Program-made: the position numbers and the translations under genes | The notes under the pieces: generated by a model | Databases searched by the model: none | What the model was told of the DNA's origin: nothing | Seen by the model: only the letters and a program-made list of their open reading frames with translations | Shown: piece after piece, positions 849 through 60,500 of the stretch | Position numbering within the stretch: position 1 is the first letter of the stretch | Layout of the letters: each line of letters begins with the position of its first letter | From: Segatella baroniae B14 | GTDB taxonomy: Bacteria; Bacteroidota; Bacteroidia; Bacteroidales; Bacteroidaceae | Assembly: GCF_022024235.1 (NCBI RefSeq) | Contig: NZ_CP091800.1 | Location: 1,032,001 to 1,096,000, forward strand | Length of the DNA: 64,000 bases | Reading direction: 5' to 3'

Positions 849-3125
849 TCAGAATAAATTTATGTTATAATATGATAAAATTTGGTTTAACTCATTATAT
901 GTAAAGTCAGCATTTTCAGATAATACAGCAAAATCACGAACTCTTTTTAATTCACTCCTTAACAGATTACGTTCCATTTTATAGTTTTCTTGAGCTGAAT
1001 TTATTTTAGGAGCAACGACTAAATCATGTATGATAGCCATATGTTTATCTGGATGCTTTCTTAAGATACGTCCCCTTCGCTGGATGAACTGTCTTGGATT
1101 ACCTGTACTGGCACAAAAAATAGCCATTTCACTGCGAGGCACATCGACACCTTCATCAAGACATTTCATAGATGTCAATACTTCAATCTCACCATTTGCA
1201 TATTTTTCAAGGATTTTATTTCTTTCTTTAATTCCTGATACGAATTTTTTCACGGTTGTTGTTTTACTAACATTTTGCACAATACGGGTATATATATCTA
1301 TCAGATTTTCTGAATAATCATCATCTATTATACTATCAGTGCTGTCAAAAACATCAGCCATTTCATTGTCAGGGTTCGCCCCTTCAGGTACATAGACCAA
1401 GGTATATTTCAAGTTACCTTTTTCTGCAAATCTATCTTCAACAATCTGCCTAAATATTATTTCCTTTTCACGTGCTTTATGAACTATTCGTTTACGTTTA
1501 AGTAATAAACGCATTAATATATCATCACCTTTGGGGAATGAATCTTTTTCACTATTATAAAATTTAGCTAACTGAAGTGATATACGCATGTATTCTGCCA
1601 TTTCTTCCTCGTTAAGTTTCACTACATGAGGAAAATATTTGTATCTGCATAAATATCCTTTGTCAATAGCTTCTTGCATATTAAATTCAAAGGTATAGCT
1701 TTTTTCACAGCCGAAGAATTCCATAATAGCCCGATTTCCACTTTCGTCAAACTGGCGTTCTGGAGTTGCAGATAGTCCTATACGACGGGGGAATTTTATT
1801 CCACCCAATCTGTCCAATATTCTTCCGGCACCCATATTGTGTGCTTCATCTGCAATCAATAAAATTTGTCGTGTTGTGTTTCGATTGAAATCAATTAATT
1901 CTCTAAATATGCTTTCACGAGCAAAAGAGGCATATGTGGCAATAATTATGAATGAGGAATTGTCATCTTCAATCACAATACTTTCTTTGATTTTTATATT
2001 ATCGAGTTCTATCTTCCATTTAGGATTTTTGGAACTTACTTTAATTATATTATTAAAATGAAACCTTTTACACTCTTCCTCCCATTGATCAACGAGCGTA
2101 ATTGTTGGTACCAATATTAGTGCTTTGTAAAAATGATATTTTTTCCAAATATTCAACAAACAATTCAATGAAGTAAGTGTTTTTCCTGTTCCTGTTGCCA
2201 TAGCAAACAATCCTTTTTGCGTTACCTTCCAAAGATCATAAGCTTGTTTTTGGTAATCTCGTGGTTCATCAAAAGGAAATTTTGGCTCAACTTTATCTGA
2301 GGCTTTAATTTCTAACCGCTCTATCTGTTGAATTATAAATTCAGTTTTTTTTCTTGCCTTATTCAAAATGGCTTGAATGCTTTGAGGAAGGTTATCATTA
2401 AGGCGCCGTGAAATAAGAGCCTGTTCTTCGCGCATCAGCTCACCTATATCCTTATGCCTGAAGTTTGCACTTATTCCTGCTTTTACTTCGTCGGCCTTTA
2501 GATAGCAGACAGAATCATCATTGCCTGAAAAAGTCTTTTCAAAATCTTCGACAATGTCGTTTATCTTACAAATGTCGCCTTGTCCATCCCAATCACAAAA
2601 CGCTGTGAGACTTTCCAGATTTTCAATTAAAGCCGTGCGTGAAAAGTTGCAAGACCCATCAAATGCGACCTTATTCAATCCATCAGAAAAAGAACCACAT
2701 TTGGAATGAGCGATGCCTTCACCGCTCTTAGGTACAACTATTTTTATTTCCAGCCGATTGTTCTTAATCAACCAAGACAAGCACTCGAAGAAATGCTGAT
2801 TACGCTCCGACAAGGTGCGCTTTACTTCTTGCAGATTGTGCAAGTCAAAATATGGCAAGGAAACACTATCATCACTCACCATCATTGCTTGCTGATCTTC
2901 AATAGACAGAACATCATTGATTACCATACGCATTCGTCCCCCATTATAGAGGAATGTGGCAAATCCATCACACAAAACGTTAATGGCAGAAGACGAAAAA
3001 AAACCAAGTTTTATATCAAACTCCGTTGCATTGCACAAAGCCTCGGAAAAAAAGCCGATTGGCTCCCATTCCGTTCTGGACTTAAATCTACGGCTAGCTG
3101 GCCACAATACGTTGTTCTTTAACAT
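849..3125 (-). CDS. PLD-like nuclease fused to SF2 (DEAH) helicase
   Basis: 758 residues in two parts. The N-terminal part (about 1-200) has one phospholipase-D-type HxK motif (H140, K142) followed by a GSCNFS stretch, as in PLD-family nucleases that act as dimers. The C-terminal part is an SF2 helicase: P-loop ATGTGKT at 310-316, DEAH at 426-429, SAT at 452-454, a CLDEGVDVP block and a QRRGR motif VI near 670. Such fusions are typical restriction effectors that translocate on DNA and cut it. It lies 17 bp downstream of the PAPS-reductase-like gene and 2 bp upstream of the 75-residue gene, so it is probably the restriction arm of this operon. That role is inferred. Confidence 0.85.
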   Translation of the reverse strand: MLKNNVLWPASRRFKSRTEWEPIGFFSEALCNATEFDIKLGFFSSSAINVLCDGFATFLYNGGRMRMVINDVLSIEDQQAMMVSDDSVSLPYFDLHNLQEVKRTLSERNQHFFECLSWLIKNNRLEIKIVVPKSGEGIAHSKCGSFSDGLNKVAFDGSCNFSRTALIENLESLTAFCDWDGQGDICKINDIVEDFEKTFSGNDDSVCYLKADEVKAGISANFRHKDIGELMREEQALISRRLNDNLPQSIQAILNKARKKTEFIIQQIERLEIKASDKVEPKFPFDEPRDYQKQAYDLWKVTQKGLFAMATGTGKTLTSLNCLLNIWKKYHFYKALILVPTITLVDQWEEECKRFHFNNIIKVSSKNPKWKIELDNIKIKESIVIEDDNSSFIIIATYASFARESIFRELIDFNRNTTRQILLIADEAHNMGAGRILDRLGGIKFPRRIGLSATPERQFDESGNRAIMEFFGCEKSYTFEFNMQEAIDKGYLCRYKYFPHVVKLNEEEMAEYMRISLQLAKFYNSEKDSFPKGDDILMRLLLKRKRIVHKAREKEIIFRQIVEDRFAEKGNLKYTLVYVPEGANPDNEMADVFDSTDSIIDDDYSENLIDIYTRIVQNVSKTTTVKKFVSGIKERNKILEKYANGEIEVLTSMKCLDEGVDVPRSEMAIFCASTGNPRQFIQRRGRILRKHPDKHMAIIHDLVVAPKINSAQENYKMERNLLRSELKRVRDFAVLSENADFTYNELNQILSYYNINLF

Positions 3126-3142
3126 GAACTATCCCCCCTATA

Positions 3143-4246
3143 TTATATAAAGCAGTTCGCACACATGATATCATCACCTAGGATTTCTGCAAGGGTCGTC
3201 CCCTTATTATTTGCCTTGTTTTCTTTTTGTCGTCGGATAATGTCAAGTTTAATCTGACGAATACGCTCTGGTTTAATGAGATCTTTCAAACTTTCATTCT
3301 GATTCCAAGTATATCCATCTTTCTCGAATTCCATTGCCTTTCTAAAAAGGTCCGGATGCTGTTCATAAAGCCATACCCACTCTATTTTCTGCTGAAAGAA
3401 ACAAAAGTAGCACCCTGAACGACTACGGCAATAGGTACCAGTCTGACCATCCACCTCAAAAGGAATTTCCTCGTAATAGGCTGGTACCCCCACACCACTT
3501 TCTCTAAGCAAACGGAATATGTCGTCTTTAATCAATATATCAGTATTATCAAGCAATGGGAAATCATCGAGCTTTCCCACAGGATAATCTGTTGTTTTCA
3601 AGAATTCAAAAACAGCATGATTAAACAATTTAACGTCATAGTCAAGTAAAGCATTCATTTTCTTAGAATAGAAAAATTGCTTAGTAATCGGCTTTTTAAC
3701 GGTTTCTATTATTTCTTCTCGTAAGAAACTTTGAGGACATAAACGTTCATAGATTTCAACTATCTGATCTAAATTTTCTTTGTGCAGAAATTTGTTGATA
3801 ACATCAATACTCCAGATATTTTTACGAAATGGGAAAACTGCTTGAATATTTGGTTTTGATGATATATAGCCATCTCTGTCTTCATCGCCACGAATACCCA
3901 CATACGAAACAGCATAATCGTCCCCCACATATTCCTCAAACTTATCTAGCTTCATCTTCTTAGTGCACCATCGAGCTTGAGGAGAAGGTAAGAAGCCACC
4001 CATTGCTTTAAGGAAGTGATGGAATGGAGTCGGCTCCGGGCTCCCTTCGGCGGCACGGAGTCTCTCAATCTTACCTAAATAGGCTTCCAAACGATTAATT
4101 AACGTTTCTGTTTCTGCAAGTTCACATCCAGTATCAGAATTATAATACTCTATCTTCAATGATGGGTATGTTTTTTTTAGATAAATAGCAAGAGCTGCAC
4201 TATCTTTACCACCAGATATGCCTAATATGTGTCTAACCTTTGTCAT
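3143..4246 (-). CDS. PAPS-reductase/DndC-family protein
   Basis: Adenine-nucleotide alpha-hydrolase (PP-loop ATPase) fold: the SGGKDS loop is at residues 11-16. Later motifs are RWCT with C94, a cysteine cluster C273/C279/C282, and C362xxC365 at the very C-terminus. Such cysteines could bind an Fe-S cluster, as in DndC. An in-frame ATG at 4285 exists, but I chose 4246 because it overlaps the preceding stop as ATGA. In Dnd systems DndC activates the DNA backbone for sulfur insertion; BREX type 4 also carries a PAPS-reductase-family protein (BrxP). Both precedents link this family to DNA modification or defence. Ordinary sulfate assimilation is unlikely, as no cys genes are nearby. Which system it belongs to is unresolved. 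Confidence 0.85.
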   Translation of the reverse strand: MTKVRHILGISGGKDSAALAIYLKKTYPSLKIEYYNSDTGCELAETETLINRLEAYLGKIERLRAAEGSPEPTPFHHFLKAMGGFLPSPQARWCTKKMKLDKFEEYVGDDYAVSYVGIRGDEDRDGYISSKPNIQAVFPFRKNIWSIDVINKFLHKENLDQIVEIYERLCPQSFLREEIIETVKKPITKQFFYSKKMNALLDYDVKLFNHAVFEFLKTTDYPVGKLDDFPLLDNTDILIKDDIFRLLRESGVGVPAYYEEIPFEVDGQTGTYCRSRSGCYFCFFQQKIEWVWLYEQHPDLFRKAMEFEKDGYTWNQNESLKDLIKPERIRQIKLDIIRRQKENKANNKGTTLAEILGDDIMCANCFI

Positions 4247-7200
4247 TTGATTATTTTTTTGTTTAGTATCGACAGTAATGTACATACATCGATATTAGTA
4301 TCACCAGAAAGTAATTGGGTAATTTTCCTTTCAAGCTCAGTAGCTTTCTTTCTATCCTTTTTGGGGAGTATGTACGTCTGCGTTCTCATACTAGTACCCT
4401 TATTGGTAACCATATCAAATGAATACGCATCTGACGTATTTTCATCATCAATCTTAGTAGATATATCAGAATATTTCTCGCACTCACGGAACAAATAGAC
4501 CAAATCATCAGACAATTTATCCTCTTGTTCATCCTTTAGAGTATCAAGTCGTTGCTCTAGAATAGTATAACAAATTGATTGATACCATTGGACTCGATTA
4601 TCATATACTGTCATTACATGATGGTAGAACTCACGTTGTTTATCTGTCAATAGATAGTCTCTAACATGAGCCAGTCTCTCACGAATCTCAATAATATACT
4701 CTGAATAATCATAGCTCTGCAACCCAAACTGCTCCACCAATCTTGATTCTATACGGTCTATCAACTGAGAGTAACAAGATCGTAGTTCTCTAATTGCACT
4801 CTGAATAATTCGTCCATATTCTGTGATGAATTCTTCTTGCTTTAGATTCTCTTGTGTAAAGCCAAGAGCTTCTGGTAAATCTTCGAAAAAAGCCTTTTCA
4901 GGATCTTTGGCTTGAGATAACACATCTCGGAATTTCATAGTTGTCCCATGATTAAATTTTCGAGTGTGCTTTGTATATTCATTAAGTCGCACATAGAAAC
5001 TCAGGAAAGGCTTAATCGTTTCAATGAAACTATCATTGGTTATCGATATTTCCTCTCCAAGATTAATAAAATGACGATATTGATTAAAAAAATCCAACTT
5101 TACACCATCAACAGAGAATTTCTTTACCTCATAATCACCTGGATGCTTTTGAAGTAAATCAAAGAATTCCATATTAACATTTGGCATGAATGCACCTCTT
5201 GATGCATCATAAAGTGCAAAGTCTTGACGCTTAATAAACAGATACGTTGGAATCCAAAAATCCAGAAATCCCTGTTTTAATTTATATGGCTTAGTTGATA
5301 GCAACTTAATTAACTCTGAAATTTTTCGAGCTTTATTTTCTGAATTACGTAAAAATTCTTCACAAGCCTCCCATAAAGGCATAAATCCCTTATTCGTTGG
5401 AACATCTGCAAATTTACCATTTTGATGCAAACCTGTATTTAATAATAGAGATGCATAGATGGTTTTTTCCGGTGGGTATTTTTCATCAGTAAATCCCATT
5501 CCATTTTCAGAATAATGTTCTGTCAAATAAGTAAGATAACTTTTGCGAGCAGCAATAATCGCTCTACTGAGTTTATGTTTATTAAACAATTCATTTACCA
5601 TCACAGGCGTTTTGCTATAAACCTCGTTACAAACCTTGGACAAAAGCCTATTAAAGTCACGATGTGATTCTACTTTCTGCTCTTTTCCGCCATACACCCA
5701 AACAACTCGGTTCTCATATGAAAACAAATTATCATTTATAGCCTTGTTGAGTAAAACTTCTTCATACTCCTTTAGTTTCCGAATTTCTTTTACAGCCACC
5801 CTATCATTTTTATCAAGTACATGATCCAACAAATATATGTACTTCTTGATATTGTAAAGATGATCTATAATATCCTTTGTATCGATGAATAAAGCGAATA
5901 CTAGTGCATTATTGGTTTCGGAACTGAATTTTATAATCTCCTCTAATGCATTTTTATGTGTAGAGAAAATTAGTTCAATGTAACCATCCGTATCACCGGT
6001 AGGCACAATATCAATTGGTTCTTCACGAATAATATAGTCAAAAAAACGTGGCGTCCCTTTCTGATAGTAATGAGCTTTGACTGGTGAAATTCTGCGATTA
6101 AAAAAGACATTCAGCTCGTCCACAAAAGCAATAGGACGTGAAACCATCATGCCTGCCTCACGAATTTCTGCTTCAAGATCCACATCAGTACCTTCAAACA
6201 AAATTAATCGTTCTTTGTATGCAGCATAGCGTACAATTTTCTTGGAAGAAAGCTTCTGTATAATCTCTGTAGCATTGTATATTGCCATTGCTTCTCGGGC
6301 ATATACAGCGAGATTATTTACCGTAAGTTTGAATCCTGCTGTTCCGAAAAGATTCAAAAGCCCAATTGCTTTTACCAACATTACGGCTTGTAGCATTTCC
6401 TTTTCTGTAGTCCAATCCTGTCCTTCAACTCGTTCGATTGAAACCTGTATTGTACTCCAGCTCATAGAATCAGAGTTAGCATCCTTCAAATAGGAATAGA
6501 AGTTATAATGTATGTAATCATACACCATTGAAAGGTTATACGTTTGATGCTTTGCAGGCCTAAATTCAGAAATAGAGTTAGTACCTCGAACTGATAAAAA
6601 TGTAAAAAGAGAACGCTCATTCTGCCCATACCGTTGAATAGCAGTTGTTATGGTATAAGCAGCAAAAATATCCAATGGAAACAACTGAATAGCCGTGCCC
6701 AATAAGAAATCTTTAGAAACATACCTTGTTTCTTTCGCCAAATCTAATAAAGGTTTGACATTGTCCGAATTGTATATATTTTTTTTCTCATGCAACTGAG
6801 TAGATGCCAAATATAGCAATTGTTCTATTGGCTCTACAAATGCAATTTCCTTAAATCGCCCTTTAACCTTTATCCACTCATTTATTTGCGATTCTGTCAG
6901 ACCTTTTGCATATGCACCAAAATTTTGATGAAGGGTTGTTAAAAGCATCATATTCCTACTTGGAACATTCACCAATTCTGAAAATTTCTGTAAGAAATAT
7001 AATTCCTTTTCAGGATTATTTTTTGCTGCGTGTTCTAACACCTTACCAAACTCATCAATTACTATAAGCAAGAATTTTCCCTTATTCTGACATTGGGTGT
7101 AATAATCTTTTAGACTATCAAGAATGCTAGTTGTATTTCCTTCAACGTTCAAAGCTCTTCTAAGTAATATTGACATCTCGACATAATCACCTACAATGTT

Positions 7201-7470
7201 CATTATCTCAAATCCCTTTGCATCGGACAGATTCTTGGCATCAAGCAGATATGTCTTTTTCCCTCTATTATTCAAATCTGATTCTAGTGCCAAAAGGAAA
7301 CTTGATTTGCCTGTGCCATAAGAACCAATGATAGTAAAAGTATGAATGCCTGAACGAAAATCATTTACTATGTTATGAATAGCATTCTTTGCATTAGGAG
7401 TTACCAAATATTGACTACCTTCTGCAAAGCCATTCTTTATATTTGCCGATAAACTAAATGTTTCTACCAT
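4243..7470 (-). CDS. Large P-loop ATPase, BrxC/PglY- or DUF499-like
   Basis: 1075-residue protein with an N-terminal AAA-type ATPase: Walker A GSYGTGKSS at 49-57 and Walker B IVIDEFG at 136-142. It is followed by a long region without motifs I recognise and a charged, helical C-terminus. Size and N-terminal layout resemble the large ATPases of BREX (BrxC/PglY) and related defence islands. This is a judgement from architecture, not from an alignment. Its start overlaps the end of the DUF4007 gene by 17 bp and its stop overlaps the start of the PAPS-reductase-like gene by 4 bp, so all three are probably translated together. Confidence 0.75.
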   Translation of the reverse strand: MVETFSLSANIKNGFAEGSQYLVTPNAKNAIHNIVNDFRSGIHTFTIIGSYGTGKSSFLLALESDLNNRGKKTYLLDAKNLSDAKGFEIMNIVGDYVEMSILLRRALNVEGNTTSILDSLKDYYTQCQNKGKFLLIVIDEFGKVLEHAAKNNPEKELYFLQKFSELVNVPSRNMMLLTTLHQNFGAYAKGLTESQINEWIKVKGRFKEIAFVEPIEQLLYLASTQLHEKKNIYNSDNVKPLLDLAKETRYVSKDFLLGTAIQLFPLDIFAAYTITTAIQRYGQNERSLFTFLSVRGTNSISEFRPAKHQTYNLSMVYDYIHYNFYSYLKDANSDSMSWSTIQVSIERVEGQDWTTEKEMLQAVMLVKAIGLLNLFGTAGFKLTVNNLAVYAREAMAIYNATEIIQKLSSKKIVRYAAYKERLILFEGTDVDLEAEIREAGMMVSRPIAFVDELNVFFNRRISPVKAHYYQKGTPRFFDYIIREEPIDIVPTGDTDGYIELIFSTHKNALEEIIKFSSETNNALVFALFIDTKDIIDHLYNIKKYIYLLDHVLDKNDRVAVKEIRKLKEYEEVLLNKAINDNLFSYENRVVWVYGGKEQKVESHRDFNRLLSKVCNEVYSKTPVMVNELFNKHKLSRAIIAARKSYLTYLTEHYSENGMGFTDEKYPPEKTIYASLLLNTGLHQNGKFADVPTNKGFMPLWEACEEFLRNSENKARKISELIKLLSTKPYKLKQGFLDFWIPTYLFIKRQDFALYDASRGAFMPNVNMEFFDLLQKHPGDYEVKKFSVDGVKLDFFNQYRHFINLGEEISITNDSFIETIKPFLSFYVRLNEYTKHTRKFNHGTTMKFRDVLSQAKDPEKAFFEDLPEALGFTQENLKQEEFITEYGRIIQSAIRELRSCYSQLIDRIESRLVEQFGLQSYDYSEYIIEIRERLAHVRDYLLTDKQREFYHHVMTVYDNRVQWYQSICYTILEQRLDTLKDEQEDKLSDDLVYLFRECEKYSDISTKIDDENTSDAYSFDMVTNKGTSMRTQTYILPKKDRKKATELERKITQLLSGDTNIDVCTLLSILNKKIIK

Positions 7471-8356
7471 AGTACTTGTCTAACACTTGTTTTATTTCCA
7501 AGTTCCTTATAAATTGAATTTGTTTAATTCCTGCCACATCACTATATGTGAAATATTGTCTATATTCATTTGACAACTTTTTCAACATTTCAATAGTCTC
7601 GAAATCTTGCATACAAAATACAAGCCCTACATTCTCTTGTATAGTCTCAAATGCAATAGTATTATCACCTTCAACCTGTTTAAGTTTCAAAAGGCCATAA
7701 AGAAAAATTTCTTTTGATACTTTTCGTTTGCCATCTACATTGAAATAATAGCTTTTCCCATCTGAACTCTGCCGAATCAGATCTAACTCAATCAACAATG
7801 ACGAAAAATCCTCATTTGATTGAGGATTACGAGGAAGACAATAGTTTTGTAGCAATACACTGATATCCTTTTTTACAGTATTTACATTATAGTTATTTTG
7901 TTTACCTGCTTCAGCGACCTTCAATTTTATATAAGTTTGAATTTGCTCACGTTCAAACTGAGTACGTTCTCTTTGAAGTCCACAAAAAAACATATTATAC
8001 AGTGATGCATCCTTTGAAAATACAAGATTAAAATGAAGAATCCAAATCGTAGCCAAATCCTCCATATATTTATCCTTGCCACTATTGTCATTAAAAAGAT
8101 AATCCCCTAACTTGGTTGGCATATCATTTTCACAAATTCCAAAAACACGAAGCCAATAGCGAATTGACGATACCATGTTTTTTCCAACGCCCAATTTGAT
8201 AACCGCATCCGCATTATTGAAATTATTTTTATTGACAACAAAATCATATCCTTTTTTCAACCACAAGGCTTTGCAAGAAAATGATTCATGTCCAGAGAAG
8301 ATAAATTTGTTTTCGCAAGTTGTCACTTTTGCTTTCAATTTAAGTGTAACATTCAT
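7454..8356 (-). CDS. DUF4007-family protein, head of defence operon
   Basis: 300 residues. The N-terminal FSGHESFSCKALWLKKGYDF block and the following LGVGKNMVSSIRYWLR block fit DUF4007, a family of unknown biochemistry that I recall from phosphorothioation-type and BREX-type islands (not checked). The second block may be a helix-turn-helix-like DNA contact. The chosen ATG at 8356 lies only 1 bp from the arm of the putative invertible element. The ribosome-binding region (AAGAG) falls inside that repeat arm, so an inverted or intact arm could change initiation. I see no promoter facing this gene in the present orientation of the element. Confidence 0.75.
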   Translation of the reverse strand: MNVTLKLKAKVTTCENKFIFSGHESFSCKALWLKKGYDFVVNKNNFNNADAVIKLGVGKNMVSSIRYWLRVFGICENDMPTKLGDYLFNDNSGKDKYMEDLATIWILHFNLVFSKDASLYNMFFCGLQRERTQFEREQIQTYIKLKVAEAGKQNNYNVNTVKKDISVLLQNYCLPRNPQSNEDFSSLLIELDLIRQSSDGKSYYFNVDGKRKVSKEIFLYGLLKLKQVEGDNTIAFETIQENVGLVFCMQDFETIEMLKKLSNEYRQYFTYSDVAGIKQIQFIRNLEIKQVLDKYYGRNI

Positions 8357-8357
8357 T

Positions 8358-8549
8358 CATCTCTTCCCAAGAGATGTATTGAAACAAAAAAGTGTTGATA
8401 TACAGATGTTTACGAAGATGTTCTGATGCGTTTTGCTAAACAAATGGCAAAAAAGCGATGCCTAAAACCCGTTTTTTGGGCATAAAAATGTGCGGTTTGC
8501 GAAAAAAAGAGTACCTTTGTACTCAGAATCCGTCTCTTGGGAAGAGATG
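8358..8549. promoter_or_regulatory. Putative invertible promoter element, copy 1
   Basis: Bounded by 19-bp arms: CATCTCTTCCCAAGAGATG at 8358-8376 and CGTCTCTTGGGAAGAGATG at 8531-8549. They are reverse complements of each other with one mismatch, and each arm is itself nearly palindromic. The 154-bp core is homologous, in reverse complement, to the core of the element at 51303-51496, with identical blocks of about 15-29 bp. The core carries a Bacteroidetes promoter at 8489-8519 that reads away from the DUF4007 gene. Inversion between the arms would point that promoter straight into the defence operon. No invertase gene is in the window. A MITE-like repeat is the main alternative. Confidence 0.6.
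8489..8519 (+). promoter_or_regulatory. Promoter inside element copy 1
   Basis: TGTG at 8489-8492, 19 bases, then TACCTTTG at 8512-8519, matching the Bacteroidetes -33/-7 pattern. The -7 box is nested in the dyad GAGTAC-CTTT-GTACTC. The predicted start, near 8526, is just inside the right arm at 8531. The same arrangement and spacing are conserved in copy 2. On the plus strand downstream there is no convincing gene. Confidence 0.55.
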
Positions 8550-8918
8550 AAGATTTTTGCTAAACATTTTTTCGTTTCGTTGTGGTTTTAGCACTCCCAA
8601 CTCTCTTTGCTCTCTCTACTTTTTTGCTTTCCTGTCCCTATTTTCCCTACTCTCTTCTTGCACGCTAAATTTTCTTAAATACGCTTTACTCGAATTCTCC
8701 GCACTAACTCTATTTTTCCGTACCAAGCTTACACACCCAACCGCCCTTACGTCCCTTGCCCGCTTGACTTTCTTTCTTTGCGTCTTGACGCTCTTAGCGA
8801 GAAAAAATCCGCCATCTGTCAAATAAAATGGCCAAAATCAGGGTCTTCCGAAAATCGCCATCTAGCTCGAAAAATTCAACTTTTAGACTGCCCACTTTGT
8901 CGCTTACACACACACTTG
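8550..8918. other. Gene-free, pyrimidine-rich stretch
   Basis: No convincing coding sequence. The plus strand is rich in CTCT/TTTC runs, and the open frames on both strands here are low-complexity by-products of that bias. This is the DNA that the promoter in element copy 1 would transcribe in its present orientation. Confidence 0.5.
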
Positions 8919-9029
8919 CGGCAAAACCCCAGCTCCTATACCCCAAAAGCTTAGACTTTAGCCGCTAAAACCTATGACCTTATCGCATAAACTCTTAGCT
9001 TTTGGGGTATAGGAGCTGGGGTTTTGCCG
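8919..9029. repeat. 33-bp perfect inverted repeat with 45-bp spacer
   Basis: The left arm, 8919-8951, begins CGGCAAAACCCCAGCTCC. The right arm, 8997-9029, is its exact reverse complement, and the match continues for a few bases after one mismatch. The spacer is 8952-8996. No T-run follows on either strand, so a simple intrinsic terminator is unlikely. It could be a cruciform-forming site, a second small invertible segment or a remnant of a mobile element. Confidence 0.8.
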
Positions 9030-9308
9030 GGCATTTCTTAACGCCCCAAAACAGCTATCAGCTAACTCGCAATGAATCAGGCAGTTACAAACTATCGCAA
9101 AATTCGCATATTTCAGTCTTTCTAACATGCCGACTGCAAATAAGCGAATTATAAGGCGGTTCATGTCAACAAAATTCAAAACAACATATTTTGCTCTTAT
9201 TGCAATATTTCTAAATAATATTTCTATCACTTGGTTATATATATATAATATTTTAAATATTTTACAATCCCCGCTCAGCCCAGTGTTTATCGGGCTTGAG
9301 CGCATGTG

Positions 9309-9436
9309 TAACGGATCGACTTGGTAAGGGTAGCGGATCGGTTTGGTTAAGCAAAAACCTTCTAACGGATCGACTTGGTAAGTCCTAACGGATCGACTTG
9401 GTAACATTTTTGAGGGCTAACGGATCGACTTGGTAA
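9309..9436 (+). repeat. Five direct repeats of a 19-bp unit (iteron-like array)
   Basis: Unit TAACGGATCGACTTGGTAA occurs exactly at 9309-9327, 9363-9381, 9386-9404 and 9418-9436, with a degenerate copy at 9331-9350. Start-to-start distances are 22, 32, 23 and 32 bp, close to two and three helical turns, so proteins bound to the copies would sit on roughly one face of the DNA. This suggests a cooperative regulator or replication-initiator-type site. No Rep-like gene is in the window. Confidence 0.8.
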
Positions 9437-9600
9437 CTTTCAAAAGCAAAAATAAAAATAAACTAAAACATGTACAATAAAAATATCACTTTTTTTTGCA
9501 CAAGAAATGAGCTTTTATGGCTAATCTATGACCATGTCCTTTTGAAGAAAGACATCAAGCAAGTAAATATGTATAAACCTATAAACCAAACACTTACACA

Positions 9601-36410: not shown

Positions 36411-36425
36411 CACTCGTAAAAGAAT

Positions 36426-36606
36426 ACTCGGGGTGCTCTACACGAAGCCAATAGGCTTAACATGTAGGGCTGAGATGATACCCATTAAACCTGATGCTGG
36501 TAATTCAGCCGTAGGAAATGAGCAAGCTAGAATAGCAATAGAAAGAAAGTATAGACAAGATCCCGGGTAATGACGTAGTTATATGTCGTTGCTCGGGCTT
36601 TTTTTG
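36426..36606 (+). promoter_or_regulatory. TPP riboswitch with transcription terminator
   Basis: The aptamer (about 36426-36525) has the THI-box sequence blocks: GGGGTGC at 36430, CTGAGAT at 36470, AACCTGAT at 36488, CTGGTAATTCAGCC and a closing segment. Downstream, 36562-36604, a long stem between CCCGGGTAATGACGTA and TATGTCGTTGCTCGGG runs into TTTTTTT, forming the expression platform. With TPP bound, transcription of thiS-thiE-thiG-thiC-thiH and the TenI-like gene should stop here. Confidence 0.95.
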
Positions 36607-51139: not shown

Positions 51140-51302
51140 GCTAATACCAAGAATACGGAAACTTCTACGAGCTCTCATCACGCAGCAATACACTAAGGTA
51201 TCAACAAAATTAACCTCACTTCATTGAAAATACGGATAAATAATAAGGCTAAAATAGATAAAAGAATTATTGCAAACCCGGGATTTGTTTTGCAAATTTC
51301 TA

Positions 51303-51496
51303 CATCTCTTTCTAAGAGACGGATTATTGAGTACAAAGGTACTCTTTTTTTCGCAAAATGCACATTTTTATGCCAAAAAAACGGGGTTCTAGTCTTCGCT
51401 TTTTTGCCCTTTGTTTAGCAAAACGCATCATACCTTTCTTGTAAACACCTGTGTATCAACGCTTTTTTATTTCGCTCCGTCTCTTAGAAAGAGACG
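51303..51496. promoter_or_regulatory. Putative invertible promoter element, copy 2
   Basis: Arms CATCTCTTTCTAAGAGACG (51303-51321) and CGTCTCTTAGAAAGAGACG (51478-51496) are reverse complements with one mismatch. The 156-bp core matches, in reverse complement, the core of the element at 8358-8549, including an identical 21-bp block around TTTGTTTAGCAAAACGCATC. A minus-strand promoter TGTG (51364-51361), 19 bases, TACCTTTG (51341-51334) points away from the SNF2 gene. Relative to its defence operon the orientation equals that of copy 1. I see no promoter facing the SNF2 gene in 51497-51617. Confidence 0.6.
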
Positions 51497-51617
51497 AAGG
51501 AAAATTTCTCGACAAAAGCTACTAAAATGCCAACTGGTAAACAATCTAATTAAATATCATTATTGCGCAATAAAAAGGTAGAGCTGTAAATCGAGATATA
51601 GCATAGAGACTTTTATA

Positions 51618-54464
51618 ATGACAAATGCGATAACTCGTTTTCATGCAAAATACTATGCTGCCCTTCTAAACGGGCAGTCAGCAAATGGTGACATAGGTTC
51701 ACTCTCACAATCGCTGCTGAGTAGTACTGTAGACATCAATCCTCATCAGATTGATGCCGCTTTGTTTGCTTTTGCATCGCCATTTTCTAAGGGCGTGGTT
51801 CTTGCTGATGAAGTGGGCTTGGGAAAAACCATCGAAGCGGGTCTGGTCGTTTGTCAGTATTGGGCAACAGGAAAGAGAAAGATTCTAATTGTTTGTCCAG
51901 CCTCTCTGCGCAAACAATGGGAAGCAGAATTGCTCGATAAGTTCGGAATCCCCAGTGAAATTCTTGACACTAAGAACTTTAATGCTTATCGTCGCGAAGG
52001 GAAGAATCCACTAAGTCCCAAGCATGCCATAATATGCAGCTACAACTTTGTGGCAAAACACAAAGAAGACATTTTGCTTCATGGTTTTGACTTGGCGGTT
52101 ATAGATGAGGCTCACAAGATGCGTAATGTCTATCGTTCTTCTGCCCGAACTTCTGCCGAAGTACGTGATGCTTTGACTGGTGTAAAGAAACTGTTGCTTA
52201 CAGCCACACCCTTCCAGAATTCTTTGATGGAACTATATGGTCTTACAAGTATCATTGACGACCGTCTGTTTGGCAGTGAAAAAAGTTTCCGAAGACAATA
52301 TGGAAAAGGAGAAAATCTGAAAGAACTGCGTCAACGCATTGAGAAGTTATATACCCGTACTTTGCGACGCGACGTAAAGGAATATATCAATTATACCCAT
52401 CGTCTTCCACTTACACAAAAGTTTAATGCTACCGATGAGGAGCAACAACTATATCAGGCTGTAAGCGATTTTCTGCGTAGGAACGATATCTATAGCGTTC
52501 CAGCTGCGCAGAAGAAGCTCACGACTATGATTGTGCGTAAGATTCTGGCTTCTTCTACCTACGCACTCATCTATACCCTTACACATATTAAAGAACGTCT
52601 CCAACGGATGCTCGAAAGCCAAAAACAGGAGCGTCTTGACATCGAAGACCTTGTAGATGAAGACACTTGGGACGCTTATGAAGACGAGGCTGCTGATGCT
52701 GGATATGATGAAGATGAGCAGCTTGATTTTGAAGATATTGATGTTCCTCGTTTGAAAGAGGAAATCAAAACCATAGAGGGCTTCATTGAAAAAGCAAAAT
52801 CGATAAAAACCGAATCGAAATCAAAGGCTTTGCTCGTTGCTTTGGAAGAATCGTTTACCAAACTTCAAGAACAGGGTGCAGAAAGGAAAGCTCTTATCTT
52901 CACTGAATCAACAAAGACGCAGGCTTTTCTGCGTGAGTTTCTTGAAGCTAATGGCTATGCCGACCGTGTCGTGTTATTCAACGGCAAGGCAAGTGAACCA
53001 CAGACCAACGAGATATACAAACGCTGGTGTCTGGAGCATCCAGACAAAGTAAGCGGCATCAAGGCTGCTGACCGAAGAGCTGCTGCTGTGGATTATTTCC
53101 AACACAAAGCAGACATCATGATTGCTACGGAAGCTGCAGCTGAAGGTCTGAACCTGCAATTCTGCTCATTGGTTATTAACTACGACCTGCCGTGGAACCC
53201 GCAACGCATAGAGCAGCGTATTAGTCGATGTCACCGCTACGGACAGAAGTACGATGTTGTGGTGGTCAATTTCCTCAATATGCGCAACTATGCTGATGTG
53301 CGTGTATTCCAATTACTTTCCACGAAGTTTAAGCTCTTCAACGATGTGTTTGGAGCCAGTGATGAAGTGTTGGGACAGGCTGACACCATTGATATAGAAT
53401 CGCGTATCTGGGAGATTTACCAACAGTGTCGTAGTGAGGAGGAAATAAATCAGGCTTTCGAACAACTGCAAAATGAGATGCAGGAACAGATAGATGAGCG
53501 TATGACGGAAGTACGTTCACAGGTACTGGAGAATTTCGACATCAATGTGCAGGAGCATCTTCGTATGACGCGCGATAACACCACAGGATTCCTCAATCGT
53601 TATGAGCATATTTTCTGGGAACTGACGAAATACATTCTCAGCAAGGAGGCTGTTTTCAATGACAAGAACCACAGCTTTTTCCTTCGTGTTCCTGTTGCAG
53701 GCCAACGCCCGGGTAAATATGCGATGCTTCAGCAGACAGATGACGCCACACCTTACCGTCTGAGTCATCCGTTAGCACAACATGTCATCAATTCTGCATT
53801 GTCACTTTCACTTGAAGATGCCGAGGTGGAATTTGACCAAAAAGCACTTTCTATAAATGCCGACCTTCCCGATTACCTTCAAGGGCAGAGCGGTGTGCTT
53901 ATCCTTTCTTCTTTGGCGGTATCTGCCTTGGCAGAAGAACAGTATATGCTCTTCAATGCTATCACCGACGATGGGCGGATTGTTTCTCAGGAGGATTGTG
54001 AGAAGCTTTTCCTCAACGGTGGAAAGGAAGTCCCATGCGAACAAGTGGAAGAGCAGACACGTCTGCGACTGCAAAAGGATGTACTCCAACATAGTGCGGC
54101 AAAACTGAAAGAGCTGGACACTCGCAATCTGTCTTTCTTCAAAGTGGAAGAAGACCGTATTTATCAATGGGAACATGATGTTATTGACGGAATAGAGGCA
54201 GAACTATCTACTATCAAGAAGCAGATACTGCAAACGGAAAGAGACGCCCGTAATGCAGAATCGGTGGCTGAGAAACTGGCCTTGGAAAAGAAAGTGGACG
54301 AACTGAAACGTAAGAAACGCCGTCTGCGAAACGAACTTGACGATCGGGAGGAGGAAGTAAGCGAGCAGCGCAAATCGATGATTACGGAATTGGAACAACG
54401 CATGGTGAAACAGACGGAACAGCAGAATCTGTTTGTTATTCGCTGGAAAGTAAAAGAGAATTAA
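51618..54464 (+). CDS. SNF2-family helicase (RapA/HepA-like) of defence locus
   Basis: 948 residues. SNF2 motifs: DEVGLGKTIEAG (P-loop near 63-71), VIDEAHKMRN, LTATPFQNS, EAAAEGLNLQF and a motif VI QRISRCHRYGQ. A long coiled coil with alternating Lys/Glu runs to the C-terminus. SNF2 proteins translocate on double-stranded DNA. It is the first gene of a three-gene locus, 13 bp upstream of the methyltransferase. In DISARM a SNF2-like helicase also accompanies a methyltransferase, but the other DISARM genes are absent. Confidence 0.9.
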   Translation: MTNAITRFHAKYYAALLNGQSANGDIGSLSQSLLSSTVDINPHQIDAALFAFASPFSKGVVLADEVGLGKTIEAGLVVCQYWATGKRKILIVCPASLRKQWEAELLDKFGIPSEILDTKNFNAYRREGKNPLSPKHAIICSYNFVAKHKEDILLHGFDLAVIDEAHKMRNVYRSSARTSAEVRDALTGVKKLLLTATPFQNSLMELYGLTSIIDDRLFGSEKSFRRQYGKGENLKELRQRIEKLYTRTLRRDVKEYINYTHRLPLTQKFNATDEEQQLYQAVSDFLRRNDIYSVPAAQKKLTTMIVRKILASSTYALIYTLTHIKERLQRMLESQKQERLDIEDLVDEDTWDAYEDEAADAGYDEDEQLDFEDIDVPRLKEEIKTIEGFIEKAKSIKTESKSKALLVALEESFTKLQEQGAERKALIFTESTKTQAFLREFLEANGYADRVVLFNGKASEPQTNEIYKRWCLEHPDKVSGIKAADRRAAAVDYFQHKADIMIATEAAAEGLNLQFCSLVINYDLPWNPQRIEQRISRCHRYGQKYDVVVVNFLNMRNYADVRVFQLLSTKFKLFNDVFGASDEVLGQADTIDIESRIWEIYQQCRSEEEINQAFEQLQNEMQEQIDERMTEVRSQVLENFDINVQEHLRMTRDNTTGFLNRYEHIFWELTKYILSKEAVFNDKNHSFFLRVPVAGQRPGKYAMLQQTDDATPYRLSHPLAQHVINSALSLSLEDAEVEFDQKALSINADLPDYLQGQSGVLILSSLAVSALAEEQYMLFNAITDDGRIVSQEDCEKLFLNGGKEVPCEQVEEQTRLRLQKDVLQHSAAKLKELDTRNLSFFKVEEDRIYQWEHDVIDGIEAELSTIKKQILQTERDARNAESVAEKLALEKKVDELKRKKRRLRNELDDREEEVSEQRKSMITELEQRMVKQTEQQNLFVIRWKVKEN

Positions 54465-54477
54465 AGAATACATAGAT

Positions 54478-57400
54478 ATGGCACAGAATTATTACGAGAG
54501 TTTCAAGAAGAAACTAGAAGAAATCTTCATGATGGATCATGCCGAACTGGACTTCGGTATCTACCGCATCATGAACCAGAAACGTAATGACATCCAACAT
54601 TTTCTAGATTTTGAGCTACTCCCGCAGGTTAAACAGGTGCTTAAAGGTAATGATGGCGGTGATGCCGACAGGACTAAGAAACGTATGGAAGAGATTGTTG
54701 CCTCAGTGGGTGGCAATGTCGAGGTATTGCCTAAAGGCACACCAATACGCGATGAATACGACAAATTGGAAACCCAATTGGCGCATTCTGGTGATACGGA
54801 ATCCATGCAGGCAGAGGTGTTCAGCCATCTTGTTACCTTCTTCTCGCGCTATTACGATGGTGGCGATTTCCTGTCTAAGCGTCGCTACAAGGACAATACC
54901 TATGCTATACCCTATAACGGAGAGGAAGTGAAACTGCATTGGGCTAACAGCGACCAGTACTATATCAAGACTTCAGAGTATTTCCGCGATTATACTTTCG
55001 TGTTGCCTACATCACGCAAGAAAGTACACTTTGTGCTAAAAGATGCCAGCACAGAACAAAACAACAATCGTGCCGCCAACAACATGGAGCGGCGCTTTGC
55101 TCTATGGGTGCCTACGCCAGAGGACGAGCTAACCACTCCCCTCGCCATTCGGAGAGGGGCTGAGGGTGAGGCTGAGTTAGATATCTATTTCACCTACGAA
55201 CTGATGCCAAAGGCTACAAAGCAGAAGGATTTGTTAGCAGCAGCCTTAGAGGGTATCATGCCTCTTGTACCTGCCGACTTCGAGGAAGTGCTTACCACTA
55301 AAGCTCCTACAAAGGATAATCCCAACCGCACTTTGCTGGAGAAGCACTTGACGGACTACACAGCCAAGAATTCATTTGATTACTTTATCCATAAGGACCT
55401 TGGCGGCTTCCTTCATCGTGAGTTGGACTTCTATATCAAGAATGAAGTGCTGCATATTGATGACCTTGATGCACAGCTCATCAACAGTCAGCTGACTATT
55501 GTCCGTGCCATCAAGCAGGTGGGCGAGAAGATTATCCGTATGTTGGCTCAACTCGAAAACTTCCAACGTAAGCTGTGGTTGAAAAAGAAGTTTGTGGTTC
55601 AAAGCGACTATTGCATCACGCTTGACCGTGTGCCTGAGAAACTATATCCTGAGATTATTGCCAACGAAGCACAACGTAAGGAATGGGTACGCTTGTTTGC
55701 CATTGACGAGATTAAGGGTGACTTGACGACAGAGGCATATAGTGAACCGCTAACCATTGAGTTCTTAAAACAAAACTCTTTCCTTGTTCTTGATACCGCT
55801 TTCTTCGATGCTAAGTTTAAGCATCAGTTAGTAAAGAGCATGGAGAATATTGATGAGCAGACAAATGGTTTGCTGATTAATAGTGAGAACTTCCAAGCAT
55901 TGGAATTGTTGCAGGAGAAATATAGAGAACGAGTTAAGTGTGTGTATATAGACCCTCCTTATAACACTGGTAGTGATGGATTTGCCTACAAAGACCAATA
56001 TAAAGATTCTTCGTGGCTGACAATGATGGAAAACAGGTTGTTAATAGTGAAACAACTTATGACTCTTGATAGTAGTATCTCTATAAGTATTAATGAAAAC
56101 GAACTATTCAATTCTAAATGTTTACTCGATAGTATGTTTTCTAAATATTTAACGACTTTCAGCGTTAAAGTTAGGCATGAAGATAGAATTCTAAAAGGAG
56201 ATAAAGACTTTCATGAGGTTTATGAATCTCTTCTTCTCTATGCTTTAAGCGACTCCTTTAAGCCTTTAAAACGACAAAAAGATAACAGTTCTGATGCTGA
56301 CTATCTATATACGATAGAAACCGAGGGGGGACCCGATGAAGTTTTGTCATTAGGTAATAAGGAAGTAGAAGTATATGCACCAGAGCATTATAAAATAATA
56401 AAACATCAAGAATCGAGTTTTGATTACACAAAACCTATAAGTGTTAGAGGTTCAATACGAGAAGGTAACTCTAGTGGACGCTTTTATGTTGCCTATCTTG
56501 AAAATTTAGCAGCTTCACACCCAGGTTTTATTTTCAAAGTTCCAAATATGGGGGATGACAAATTTGGTTTCAGATATTTTTGGACTCCATCTGTTGAGAG
56601 TGGAAGAAAAAACGGAGATTATTATCAAGGGGCACCAATAAATAGAAAAGATACTATAGAAATCCCTTACCCAAATTATGTTGACTTTGAGAAAGCATTT
56701 AATGACGCAACTGATGAAGGTGGTGTTTCTTTTAGAAACGGTAAAAAACCTATATCGTTTATTCAACATGTTCTCTCATTACAAAATATAGGAAAAGACA
56801 AAAATGCCTTGATTATTGATTTCTTCGCTGGTTCTGCTTCTACAGGTCATGCAGTAATTGAAATGAACAAAGACCAAGGTAATAGAAAATATCTTCTTTC
56901 TCAGGTAGGAGATATTTTTGACGATGTAACCAAGCCTCGAATGGAAAGGACTGTTTATTCTGATAGTTGGAAAGACGGTAAACCCGTATCTCGCCAAGGC
57001 ATCTCTCAATGCTTCAAATACATCCGATTGGAGCAGTACGAAGATACGTTGAACAACCTTGAAATAAAGAAGCAGCAGATTGATTGGCGTGATGATGAGT
57101 TCCATGAGAGCTATATGCTCAGTTATATGCTCGATACAGAGACACGTGACTCTCTGCTGAACCAGAAGATGTTCGTCAATCCATTCAATATGTCACTGAA
57201 AACCACCAAAGACAATGAGTTGGTGGAAACAAAGGTGGATATGGTAGAGACTTTCAACTACCTTATTGGCTTGAACGTGGAAACGGAAGACTGGTTCGAG
57301 AATGACAATATCTGCGTTGTTCAAGGAAAGACACATCGTAGAGGATTGAAGACACTCGTCATCTGGCGTAACTGCGAGGAGATAGACAACGAGAAACTTT

Positions 57401-57564
57401 GCCGTTTCTTTGAACGCATGGACTTCCGCACCCGAGATTCTGAATTCGACCTTATCTATGTGAATGGTGACAACACTTTGCCAAACCTGCGCAGAGACGA
57501 GGAAAACTGGAAAGTGGTGCTGACGGAAGAGGAATTCGCAAAACGTATGTTTGAAGAGGCTTGA
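54478..57564 (+). CDS. Type III-like DNA adenine methyltransferase (Mod)
   Basis: 1028 residues. Beta-class N6-adenine methyltransferase order: catalytic DPPYNTGSDGF near residue 490, then FFAGSASTGHAVIEMN (SAM-binding FxGxG) near 782. The N-terminal 480 residues form a large extra domain. The DNA between the two motifs (about 55900-56950), where the target-recognition domain lies, is visibly more AT-rich than both flanks, as if exchanged by recombination. It overlaps neither neighbour; the Res start follows the stop by 1 bp. Methylation would protect host sites from the Res product. Confidence 0.9.
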   Translation: MAQNYYESFKKKLEEIFMMDHAELDFGIYRIMNQKRNDIQHFLDFELLPQVKQVLKGNDGGDADRTKKRMEEIVASVGGNVEVLPKGTPIRDEYDKLETQLAHSGDTESMQAEVFSHLVTFFSRYYDGGDFLSKRRYKDNTYAIPYNGEEVKLHWANSDQYYIKTSEYFRDYTFVLPTSRKKVHFVLKDASTEQNNNRAANNMERRFALWVPTPEDELTTPLAIRRGAEGEAELDIYFTYELMPKATKQKDLLAAALEGIMPLVPADFEEVLTTKAPTKDNPNRTLLEKHLTDYTAKNSFDYFIHKDLGGFLHRELDFYIKNEVLHIDDLDAQLINSQLTIVRAIKQVGEKIIRMLAQLENFQRKLWLKKKFVVQSDYCITLDRVPEKLYPEIIANEAQRKEWVRLFAIDEIKGDLTTEAYSEPLTIEFLKQNSFLVLDTAFFDAKFKHQLVKSMENIDEQTNGLLINSENFQALELLQEKYRERVKCVYIDPPYNTGSDGFAYKDQYKDSSWLTMMENRLLIVKQLMTLDSSISISINENELFNSKCLLDSMFSKYLTTFSVKVRHEDRILKGDKDFHEVYESLLLYALSDSFKPLKRQKDNSSDADYLYTIETEGGPDEVLSLGNKEVEVYAPEHYKIIKHQESSFDYTKPISVRGSIREGNSSGRFYVAYLENLAASHPGFIFKVPNMGDDKFGFRYFWTPSVESGRKNGDYYQGAPINRKDTIEIPYPNYVDFEKAFNDATDEGGVSFRNGKKPISFIQHVLSLQNIGKDKNALIIDFFAGSASTGHAVIEMNKDQGNRKYLLSQVGDIFDDVTKPRMERTVYSDSWKDGKPVSRQGISQCFKYIRLEQYEDTLNNLEIKKQQIDWRDDEFHESYMLSYMLDTETRDSLLNQKMFVNPFNMSLKTTKDNELVETKVDMVETFNYLIGLNVETEDWFENDNICVVQGKTHRRGLKTLVIWRNCEEIDNEKLCRFFERMDFRTRDSEFDLIYVNGDNTLPNLRRDEENWKVVLTEEEFAKRMFEEA

Positions 57565-57565
57565 T

Positions 57566-60500
57566 ATGGCAAAGAAGAATACAAAAAGACCAGCACGTCT
57601 ACAAGAAGCACTGGTACTGCATAAATACATCCTGCATCTGTTGGGATGCAAGGACTTGGAAGCTTTGAGCCAAGACTTAAAGGATCCAGCACTGGAAGGT
57701 GTGGATGACGAAGGAACGTCGCGTATTTTCTATGCGTTGAAGATGCACATGTATGACTATGAAATCAAGGAAGAAAAGCTCTATGAGTATGACCGCAACA
57801 TAGTGAAACATACAAAGGAGATCAACGAACGGCGAGAGGAAAAGATAACGTGGAAGTATTACCAATACTTGGCTCTGCTCTTCACAGAAATTTATCTCGA
57901 CCGCTTTTTCTCGGACAAGCAACGTCTACTTGATGACATCAACACGTTTTTGATGCATGACTTCAACCTGCGCACGGAAACATGGCACGACATGCCCATG
58001 TTCACTGAGGACGACCTGAACAAGGTGGCATTTTGGGCAGCAACCGGTTCGGGTAAAACATTGATGATGCATGTGAACATCAAGCAGTATTTGCATTATG
58101 CAGAGAAACACAATGCCAAAAAACTGAACCGCATCATGATTCTGACACCTAACGAGGGTTTGTCTAACCAACATATTGAAGAGCTGCATAAATCAAACTT
58201 TGATGCACAGCTTTTTACAAAGCAAAGTCGTGGTAGTTTCTTTGAAGGCAAAACCATTGATGTAATAGACATCAATAAACTGGCAGAACAGGATGGTGAC
58301 AAGACGGTAGCAGTTGATAGTTTCGAAGGTAACAATCTGGTACTTGTTGACGAAGGACATAAAGGTAGTGGTGGAGAAGTGTGGAAAGGCTATCGGAATA
58401 AACTGACTCAGGAAGGTTTCTCGTTTGAATACTCGGCAACCTTTGGACAAGCTATTGCTGCCCAAACAGGAGCAAGCCGCAAAGCCTTAATAGAAGAATA
58501 TGGTAAGGCAACGCTCTTCGACTACAGCTACCGCTACTTCTATAATGATGGTTATGGTAAAAACTACCGCATCATGAACATGGCTACTGTAGAAAACGAG
58601 GAACTGCTGAATATGTACCTAACAGCCTATCTGCTGTGCCTCTATGAGCAGACACTGGCTTTCGATGGCGATATGAACATAAAAAACAAGTTCCTCATCG
58701 CTCGTCCATTAGGCATCTTTGTTGGTAGCTCTGTAAATGCTGTACGCACAGAAAAAAAACGTAAGATAAGTGATGTCGTGAAGATACTTCTTTTCTTCCA
58801 ATCCTTCATTAATAGACCTTCGGAGTTTAGCGGCTACATCAAACGACTGCTTAATCCTAATGATGGCATCAAGAATCTACGTGGATATTCGCTATTTGCC
58901 AATAATTTCTTATTGACAAAACAAGGATTGAAACTTGGTGAGGAAGATGCTTTCGCTGCCCAGACATATCATAAGATCATGGAAAAGCTATTCCACAGCA
59001 ATGTGCCCAATGCCAATTTGCATATAGATAAACAGAAAGGTGGTGATGGCGAAATTGGTCTTCGCGTAGGAAATGCTCCTTACTTCGGAGTTATAAATGT
59101 GGGTGACAGTGATACGCTTATCAAACTGTGTGAATCGAACGACTTGGACTGTGAGACACGTGAGTTTGGTAACAATTCTCTGTTTTCACACATTAACGAT
59201 GATGACTCTACAATCAACATCCTTATAGGTTCCAAGAAGTTCAGTGAAGGATGGAGTAGCTGGCGTGTCAGCGCTATGGGCTTGATGAACGTAGGACGTA
59301 GTGAAGGCTCGGAAATCATTCAGCTCTTTGGTCGTGGTGTGCGCTTGAAAGGCTACAAGTATTCTTTGAAACGAAGCACAGCCCTTGACAGTAGTTACAA
59401 TCCTGGCAATCTGCCAAAAGGATTGCGAGAGATAGAAACACTGAATATCTTTGGCGTAAGGGCAGATTATATGGATACTTTCCGAAAATATCTGGAAGAT
59501 GAAGGATTGCCAGCAAATGAAGAAGCATATACGGAAGTGAAGATTCCAACCGTCAACTTGCTTGGTGAGACGAAACTGAAAGTGGTTCGTCTGAAAGAAG
59601 GATATGACTTCAAGAAAACGGTAGTGGTGCATCCTGAAGAATGCATCGATAAAGTGCGTGTCAAGGTGGACTGGCTGCCAAAGGTTGATGCATTGTGGAG
59701 TAAAAAGGCTGGTGTAGAGGAAGGTGCAGTAATGCCTAAAGGCAAATTACGTTCCAGTCATCTTGCATTGCTCAATTGGAACAAGATATTCTTTGCCATT
59801 GAGCAGATGAAAAATGAACGTAGTTGGTGGAATATGGAGCTAAGCATGGGAACATTGCAAAGTTTGATGCAGTCCTCAGATTGGTATGAATTGTTTATTC
59901 AAGAAGATGACCTCACGCCAAAAGACTTTGGAAGGGATGTGGCTCGATGGGAGGAGATTACCATTGCTTTGCTACGTGCATACATTGATCGTGCCTACAA
60001 GATGAGCAAAGGAAAGTGGGAATCAAAGTATATGGAGACTGTCTATTTGTCGCCAAACGATCCAAACTTCTTTGAGGAATACACTGTGGAAGTCCGCAAT
60101 GACAGACAAGAATGGATAGACAAACTGCACGAGCTTCGCGAGCAGATATTATCAGGCAATTTGGAACGTGACTTCTCTATCTACGGACCTTGGATAACAT
60201 CACTTCGTTTCGACCAGCATCTTTTCTATCCGTTGCTATGCCTACAGGATAGAAACGCTAATGGTAAGAAGCAACTGGTGGATAAAGATACCAACGAACC
60301 ACTGATAAAGATTTCTCCTGTAGCTCTTAATCCTGGGGAAAAACGATTTGTGTCCGATGTAAGGAAATTCTTTGATGACAATAGGAATGGAATGCTTGCT
60401 AATAAGGAAATATACCTTCTCAGAAACGAGAGCCGTAAGGGCATAGGCTTTTTTGAAGCAAGTGGATTCTATCCTGACTTTATCCTTTGGGTGAACGATG

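Follow-up and report, generated by a model that had tools for sequence, protein, structure and literature searches.

In gut Bacteroidales, the promoters known to invert mostly control surface structures. Here, the subject is a 64,000-nucleotide stretch of the Segatella baroniae B14 genome (contig NZ_CP091800.1, positions 1,032,001 to 1,096,000; called the window below), in which a short inverted repeat, element A (window 8356-8551), lies directly before an operon predicted to encode SspBCD-PbeA, a defence system of the phosphorothioation type. Element A is most probably a site-specific invertible promoter that serves as a phase-variation switch for this operon. What is new is the subfamily of invertible promoters to which it belongs. 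Its members are mobile in relatives and often carry defence cargo, and a conserved, structured leader RNA precedes many of these operons. No description of this defence-facing element was found in the open-licence literature, among the matches listed.

Several described systems come close to this one. Capsule-locus invertible promoters have internally palindromic repeats in Bacteroides xylanisolvens and Parabacteroides distasonis, and tyrosine-type invertases lie beside such promoters in B. thetaiotaomicron (PMC12118408). The subfamily described here resembles them in its short palindromic inverted repeats round a promoter, its nearby invertase, and its ON or OFF orientation. It differs in arm sequence and in cargo, which here is often DNA modification or anti-phage defence and there is capsule.

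Invertible promoters borne on integrative and conjugative elements (ICEs) control antibiotic resistance genes (Yan et al., 2022, PMC8748976). There, as here, invertase and invertible promoter are combined on a mobile element, and the promoter is followed by a site for variable cargo. The ICE cargo is resistance, however, whereas relatives of element A are found with mobilisation genes and defence operons, and the S. baroniae copies, unlike those of the ICEs, have no adjoining recombinase gene. A third comparison is with inverton group 145, near which tyrosine recombinase, relaxase, and MobC genes are enriched and which is linked to restriction (PMC11892184). The same neighbours and the same link are seen here. 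Group 145, however, overlaps restriction subunit S genes, whereas the promoter considered here would switch whole operons.

On the side of the cargo, homologues of SspB, SspC, SspD, and PbeA stand in one operon, as in SspABCD and Dnd-PbeABCD (PMC8092258, PMC6459918); no link of those systems to an invertible promoter was found in the open-licence literature, among the matches listed. For the B. fragilis group, invertible promoters have been named as a possible methyltransferase switch in work on methylomes (PMC10333322). Finally, the B. fragilis master invertase Mpi, as mentioned in PMC5903667, is one recombinase for many dispersed switches, the arrangement proposed here, although Mpi is a serine recombinase.

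Anatomy of element A and the operon behind it

Element A is a 25-nt inverted repeat around 146 nt, with arms at 8356-8380 and 8527-8551 that are 92% complementary (23 of 25). Each arm is itself a palindrome. The left arm holds the palindromic 15-mer TCTCTTCCCAAGAGA at 8360-8374, the right arm its partner TCTCTTGGGAAGAGA at 8533-8547, and the putative invertible core is the 158 bp between them (8375-8532). The 19-bp arms (8358-8376 and 8531-8549) and 154-bp core that the initial annotation had reported are real, and are nested in these longer arms. As in invertons generally, inverted repeats enclose a segment of about 100-350 bp that bears a promoter. The window contains two arm pairs that are 19 nt or longer, have no more than one mismatch, and stand 100-300 bp apart; each of 10 first-order Markov simulations contains zero.

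The core contains a single match to the Bacteroidetes -7 motif TAnnTTTG. This box, TACCTTTG at 8512-8519 on the plus strand, begins 21 nt from the right 15-mer and points right, off the operon. No TAnnTTTG directed at the operon is present within element A; on the minus strand between 8200 and 9750, matches occur only at 9454 and 9608. This agrees with the earlier description of one good promoter facing away and none facing the operon. Because the single core promoter is directed away from sspB, the operon would be OFF in the assembly, as had been proposed. The operon ATG lies at 8356-8354, and the purine-rich stretch ahead of it sits inside the arm, where a ribosome-binding site had been placed.

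The operon runs on the minus strand. Its first gene, sspB (7454-8356, 300 amino acids), encodes a DUF4007 protein (Pfam PF13182, 7.1e-80) that matches the PADLOC model SspB at 2.1e-90. After it come sspC (4243-7470; PADLOC SspC, 1228.9 bits), sspD (3143-4285; PADLOC SspD, 1.6e-86), and a pbeA-like helicase gene (849-3125; PADLOC PbeA, 1101.9 bits). Further on, left of the window, lies a gene for an SMC-type ATPase, which has weaker matches to LmuB and PbeC. SspB, SspC, and SspD thus share one operon with a Pbe partner, as members of the Ssp/Pbe systems do. What had been annotated as a "DUF4007 operon" does begin with a DUF4007 gene, and is now more narrowly predicted, from homology, to be a phosphorothioation-type (SspBCD-PbeA) defence operon.

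Two paralogues of element A extend the earlier description, which had also left the palindromic character of the arms unmentioned. Compared with A and its flanks, element B is 84% identical and element C 82%; the cores of A and B are 88% identical. Element B, in the same window (51305-51494), has its 15-mers at 51305-51319 and 51480-51494 and its -7 box at 51334-51341 on the minus strand (OFF). Behind it, on the plus strand (51618-60778), is an operon for a DrmD-like SNF2 helicase, a type III methyltransferase, and a type III restriction subunit. Element C lies on another contig (C1:617885-618072) and faces a cytosine methyltransferase operon with an SNF2 helicase. All three elements turn the same end toward a different defence operon, with the promoter directed away, and all three were assembled OFF. 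In the 3.63-Mb genome, six sites match the arm palindrome TCTCTTNNNAAGAGA, and these are the six arms of the three pairs; the backward control gives 0.

Elements present three times in a genome and ending in inverted repeats might, of course, also be miniature inverted-repeat transposable elements (MITEs) that inserted in defence islands by chance. This is the least credible of the explanations considered, and close to negligible. No target duplication is visible by eye next to A, and the flanks are common to relatives; A, B, and C all present the same end to their operons, and inversion in relatives occurs in place. MITEs are recognised, in contrast, by target-site duplication and by insertion at unrelated sites.

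Inversion in relatives and the recombinase

The relatives of element A do invert. Two loci, L051 and L071, carry a 188-bp element that is 99.5% identical and in opposite orientation, while the flanks align plus/plus over 2237 bp at 89% on the recombinase side and over 1923 bp at 94% on the cargo side. Elements in L052 and L071 are also opposite (92.6% identical), as are those in L090 and L122 (83%). Such pairs come from metagenome-assembled genomes of different taxa and are not two states of one strain; likewise, most of the orientation statistics given here are based on metagenome-assembled genomes, each of a different species, the genome sets being composed of one genome per species. Inversion in the family follows because both orientations are found between collinear flanks in relatives. 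The initial annotation had suggested seeking inverted copies of this locus in sister genomes; inverted copies of the family are present in relatives, at loci other than A and beside a tyrosine recombinase gene, and its reading of an invertible promoter gains support.

The inner bases beside the palindrome travel with the core and the outer bases stay, and therefore exchange takes place inside the 15-mer. The centres of the arms point the same way. With 3 bp left free, the centres are reverse-complementary within the pair in all 35 pairs with non-identical cores, in 14 types, many of the elements being related. A second, partly overlapping set from the genus gives 23 of 24; the one that departs from the rule is an extra, third palindrome next to a pair that does match. 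In element A the central trinucleotides are CCC/GGG; in B and C they are TCT/AGA. Reverse-complementary centres within pairs are, on this comparative reading, a crossover signature.

These centres also bear on a second alternative, in which the palindromes are two operators for a transcription factor shared by a defence regulon, and the inverted-repeat appearance simply follows from palindromy. Each arm is indeed palindromic, and the palindrome is common to three defence operons. Nevertheless, the centres vary among elements and yet match inversely within each. Moreover, orientation is reversed between relatives with collinear flanks, and a recombinase gene often adjoins the element. The in-place inversion in L051 and L071 contradicts the operator explanation for the family, and we hold it to be very improbable for element A, if marginally less so than a MITE.

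In most members of the family, 21-23 nt lie between one arm and the start of the -7 box. An exact box 19-26 nt from an arm is present in 53 distinct elements, and in each of them at a single arm; 12 further entries, not deduplicated, are without an exact box at that distance. The exact box points toward the recombinase gene in 28 of 42 element loci and toward the cargo in 7, and could not be called in the remaining 7. One or more exact arm pairs are present in 24 of 398 genus genomes, that of S. baroniae included, and the control columns are 0. A blastn search at E 1e-5 did not find the element in plasmid or phage records.

In some genomes with several elements, arm centres also differ from element to element (TCG, TCC, and TTC in G437; TCT and CGT in G318). 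The same centre appears in two elements of G468 and in two of the S. baroniae genome (G000), where B and C, on different contigs, both have TCT. Differing centres within a genome might block recombination between elements.

In many relatives, the element is directly 3' of a tyrosine recombinase gene, most often with 31 bp between the gene end and the 15-mer (offsets 20-323). The best 80 of 129 recombinase loci were considered, and in 42 of these an element lies no more than 600 bp 3' of the gene. Among the 38 without one, 10 have less than 260 bp of sequence left, and at least L068 and L103 have an element just past 600 bp or extending past that limit. To judge by their equal lengths, L044, L045, and L050 are apparently the same contigs as G008, G167, and G127. 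In L036 the recombinase gene adjoins relaxase and MobC genes (Pfam), and genes similar to these, from a reading of the open reading frames, are present in L037 and L038.

The S. baroniae genome itself has a close homologue of these recombinases, at G000:C2:1100990-1102186, 61 kb from element A and 5 kb beyond the window. It is 75% identical, has no stops, and carries the domains Arm-DNA-bind_5, Phage_int_SAM_5, and Phage_integrase. An alignment of 8 shows conservation of R, K, R, H, and Y, which we take to be the catalytic residues of a tyrosine recombinase. Beside the gene, no mobilisation gene or element was seen. In a midpoint-rooted tree of 37 recombinases, it falls within a supported group of 24 (98/95), of whose 21 labelled members 16 have defence cargo. 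Over the whole tree the defence label requires 7 changes, against 10.9 in shuffles, of which 2 in 500 were as low. An Mpi-type serine invertase regulon was rejected, the two enzymes tested being tyrosine recombinases; by eye, the arms are without the Mpi consensus.

A mechanism may be proposed from these parts. A tyrosine recombinase would bind the palindromic half-sites in both arms, and strand exchange at the central bases would invert the core of about 158 bp. By coordinate arithmetic, inversion of copy A would bring the -7 box to 8388-8395 on the minus strand, 31 nt before the start of sspB. If the core promoter is active, the operon would then be expressed (ON), and this, in turn, may confer phage resistance. 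Elements A, B, and C would be three cassettes, probably served in trans by the recombinase at C2:1100990, which would then be the enzyme that acts on element A.

Several observations weigh against a working switch at A. The evidence for inversion comes from relatives, not from copy A itself. No recombinase gene adjoins A; in its own genome the enzyme is available only in trans, and two tyrosine recombinases of lower similarity (25% and 30% identity) are possible alternative agents. The usual Bacteroidetes promoter has an upstream element at -33 spacing. Here, the distance from the conserved T-tract to the -7 box that follows it is about 16 nt, shorter than usual and not canonical. Readthrough from upstream into the sspB operon may also occur.

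The sspB genes of relatives tell a similar story. SspB matches were found in 21 of 298 genomes searched, this one included. Upstream regions of 15 homologues were read, after five partial matches (L175-L179) were dropped, and none carries the element, whereby control of sspB by the element is not conserved. A sense-strand TAnnTTTG stands no more than 450 bp upstream in 13 of the 15 (one, L174, read from a doubtful open reading frame). We infer from this distribution that the switch was captured by the sspB operon, not inherited with it.

Some of these points would fit element A as a stranded descendant of the invertible family, no longer flipped, with its operon locked OFF or driven by readthrough. 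Such a history is suggested because a recombinase gene beside B seems to have decayed: a probable 3' end of one is seen at 51192-51301 (local alignment of the DNA scores 37, whereas the best of 200 shuffles reaches 18), a stretch in which tblastn gave no protein-level recombinase match. Element A, for its part, has no recombinase gene beside it at all, and its centres are unlike those of B and C. Relatives, too, contain one-armed relics (G376 and G100:C22) with the promoter still toward the leader. Against this stand the close match of the arms of A, a core promoter kept together with its spacing, and an intact, close recombinase in the same genome. A stranded element is therefore rather unlikely, although it deserves far more weight than operators or a MITE, and an invertible promoter still capable of flipping remains the preferred explanation.

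Defence cargo and a structured leader RNA

The element is not restricted to defence genes. Downstream of it, a PADLOC match at E no greater than 1e-20 was found in 20 of the 36 element-bearing recombinase loci tested; 7 of the 42 element loci were outside this test, for which one or a few downstream genes were chosen at each locus, in some cases excluding the first. Among the 20, eleven are SNF2/HKD helicases with C3a139 as best model, and one matches only HEC-02A. We take both to be models of candidate systems, so that 12 of the 20 rest on candidate models. The other eight comprise BrxC, Dnd, DrmD, and type II (including IIG-like) and type III methyltransferases. For example, L050 carries DndC, a PbeC/DndD-like ATPase, DndE, and PbeA, and L044 carries BrxC.

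At the 16 loci without a PADLOC match, the genes compared with Pfam include those for BspA-type repeats, fimbrillin, a TonB receptor, OmpA, SrfB, and a ketosynthase; at two of them no Pfam family was found in the genes tested. Recombinase loci that lack an element served as a control: a PADLOC match lies downstream in 1 of 9, a small sample from a set that differs also in recombinase divergence. The near-identical recombinases of L046 and L079 have different cargo. By these annotations, the subfamily frequently, and not exclusively, carries defence cargo.

Between the element and the first gene, an alignment reveals a leader of about 110 nt, common to element C and 13 other loci. Near C it occupies L003:1773-1891 (C1:618113-618231). 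Element A has no such leader, and between B and its operon there is a weak match on the plus strand (51499-51606, 29.3 bits, E 0.006). The leader is predicted to fold into four helices and a pseudoknot (CUCGACA with UGUCGAG), formed in 93.5% of alignment cells. Double-changed cells number 14, where shuffles give 5.6 and slid controls 1-3. Further pair types are not above the shuffles (186 of 500 were as high), and the fold was read from the same sequences. No Rfam match at the gathering score was found in the six loci searched.

A model built from 12 of these sequences matches 19 of 299 genus genomes, at 20 loci. Eighteen of these loci were examined, and paired arms are present in 8 and absent in 10 (two of them one-armed relics, and one cut by a contig end). 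The translations behind nine of these ten leaders were read as helicases, a type I R subunit, BrxC, a cytosine methyltransferase, and a GIY-YIG protein. Thus, a conserved and, as far as the alignment indicates, covarying and pseudoknotted leader RNA precedes many defence genes, with or without an invertible element. In the two relics, the promoter points toward the leader, as if locked. One, in G376:C97 (L185), has a type I R-like gene behind it; the other, in G100:C22 (L040:6326 onward), has no obvious gene directly behind.

We give roughly even chances to a broader view, in which the subfamily, mobile in relatives, is a general immunity switch. Here, one recombinase acting in trans would randomise, cell by cell, the expression of several unrelated DNA-modification and defence systems of a genome, the CCC and TCT centres would prevent cross-recombination between neighbouring switches of one replicon, and the pseudoknotted leader would further control many of these operons. 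A portable switch would then stand before SspBCD-Pbe, Dnd, BREX-type, type II, and type III systems, and immunity may toggle at random. If this is true, methylation, phosphorothioation, and phage resistance differ between sister cells, and defence systems are being counted as "present" in genomes where they are OFF.

Other features of the window may be mentioned. To the right of element A is a long non-coding stretch, in which a 50-nt inverted repeat (8919-9029) is 90% complementary around an 11-nt loop, and a repeat of about 15 bp, GGATCGACTTGGTAA, is seen by eye in four copies and one variant (9305-9440). A thiamine pyrophosphate (TPP) riboswitch at 36419-36534 scores marginally above the gathering score. 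Directly after the type III operon of element B, at 61212-62627, lies a gene for an ATPase with a strong match to the PADLOC model PDC-S27.
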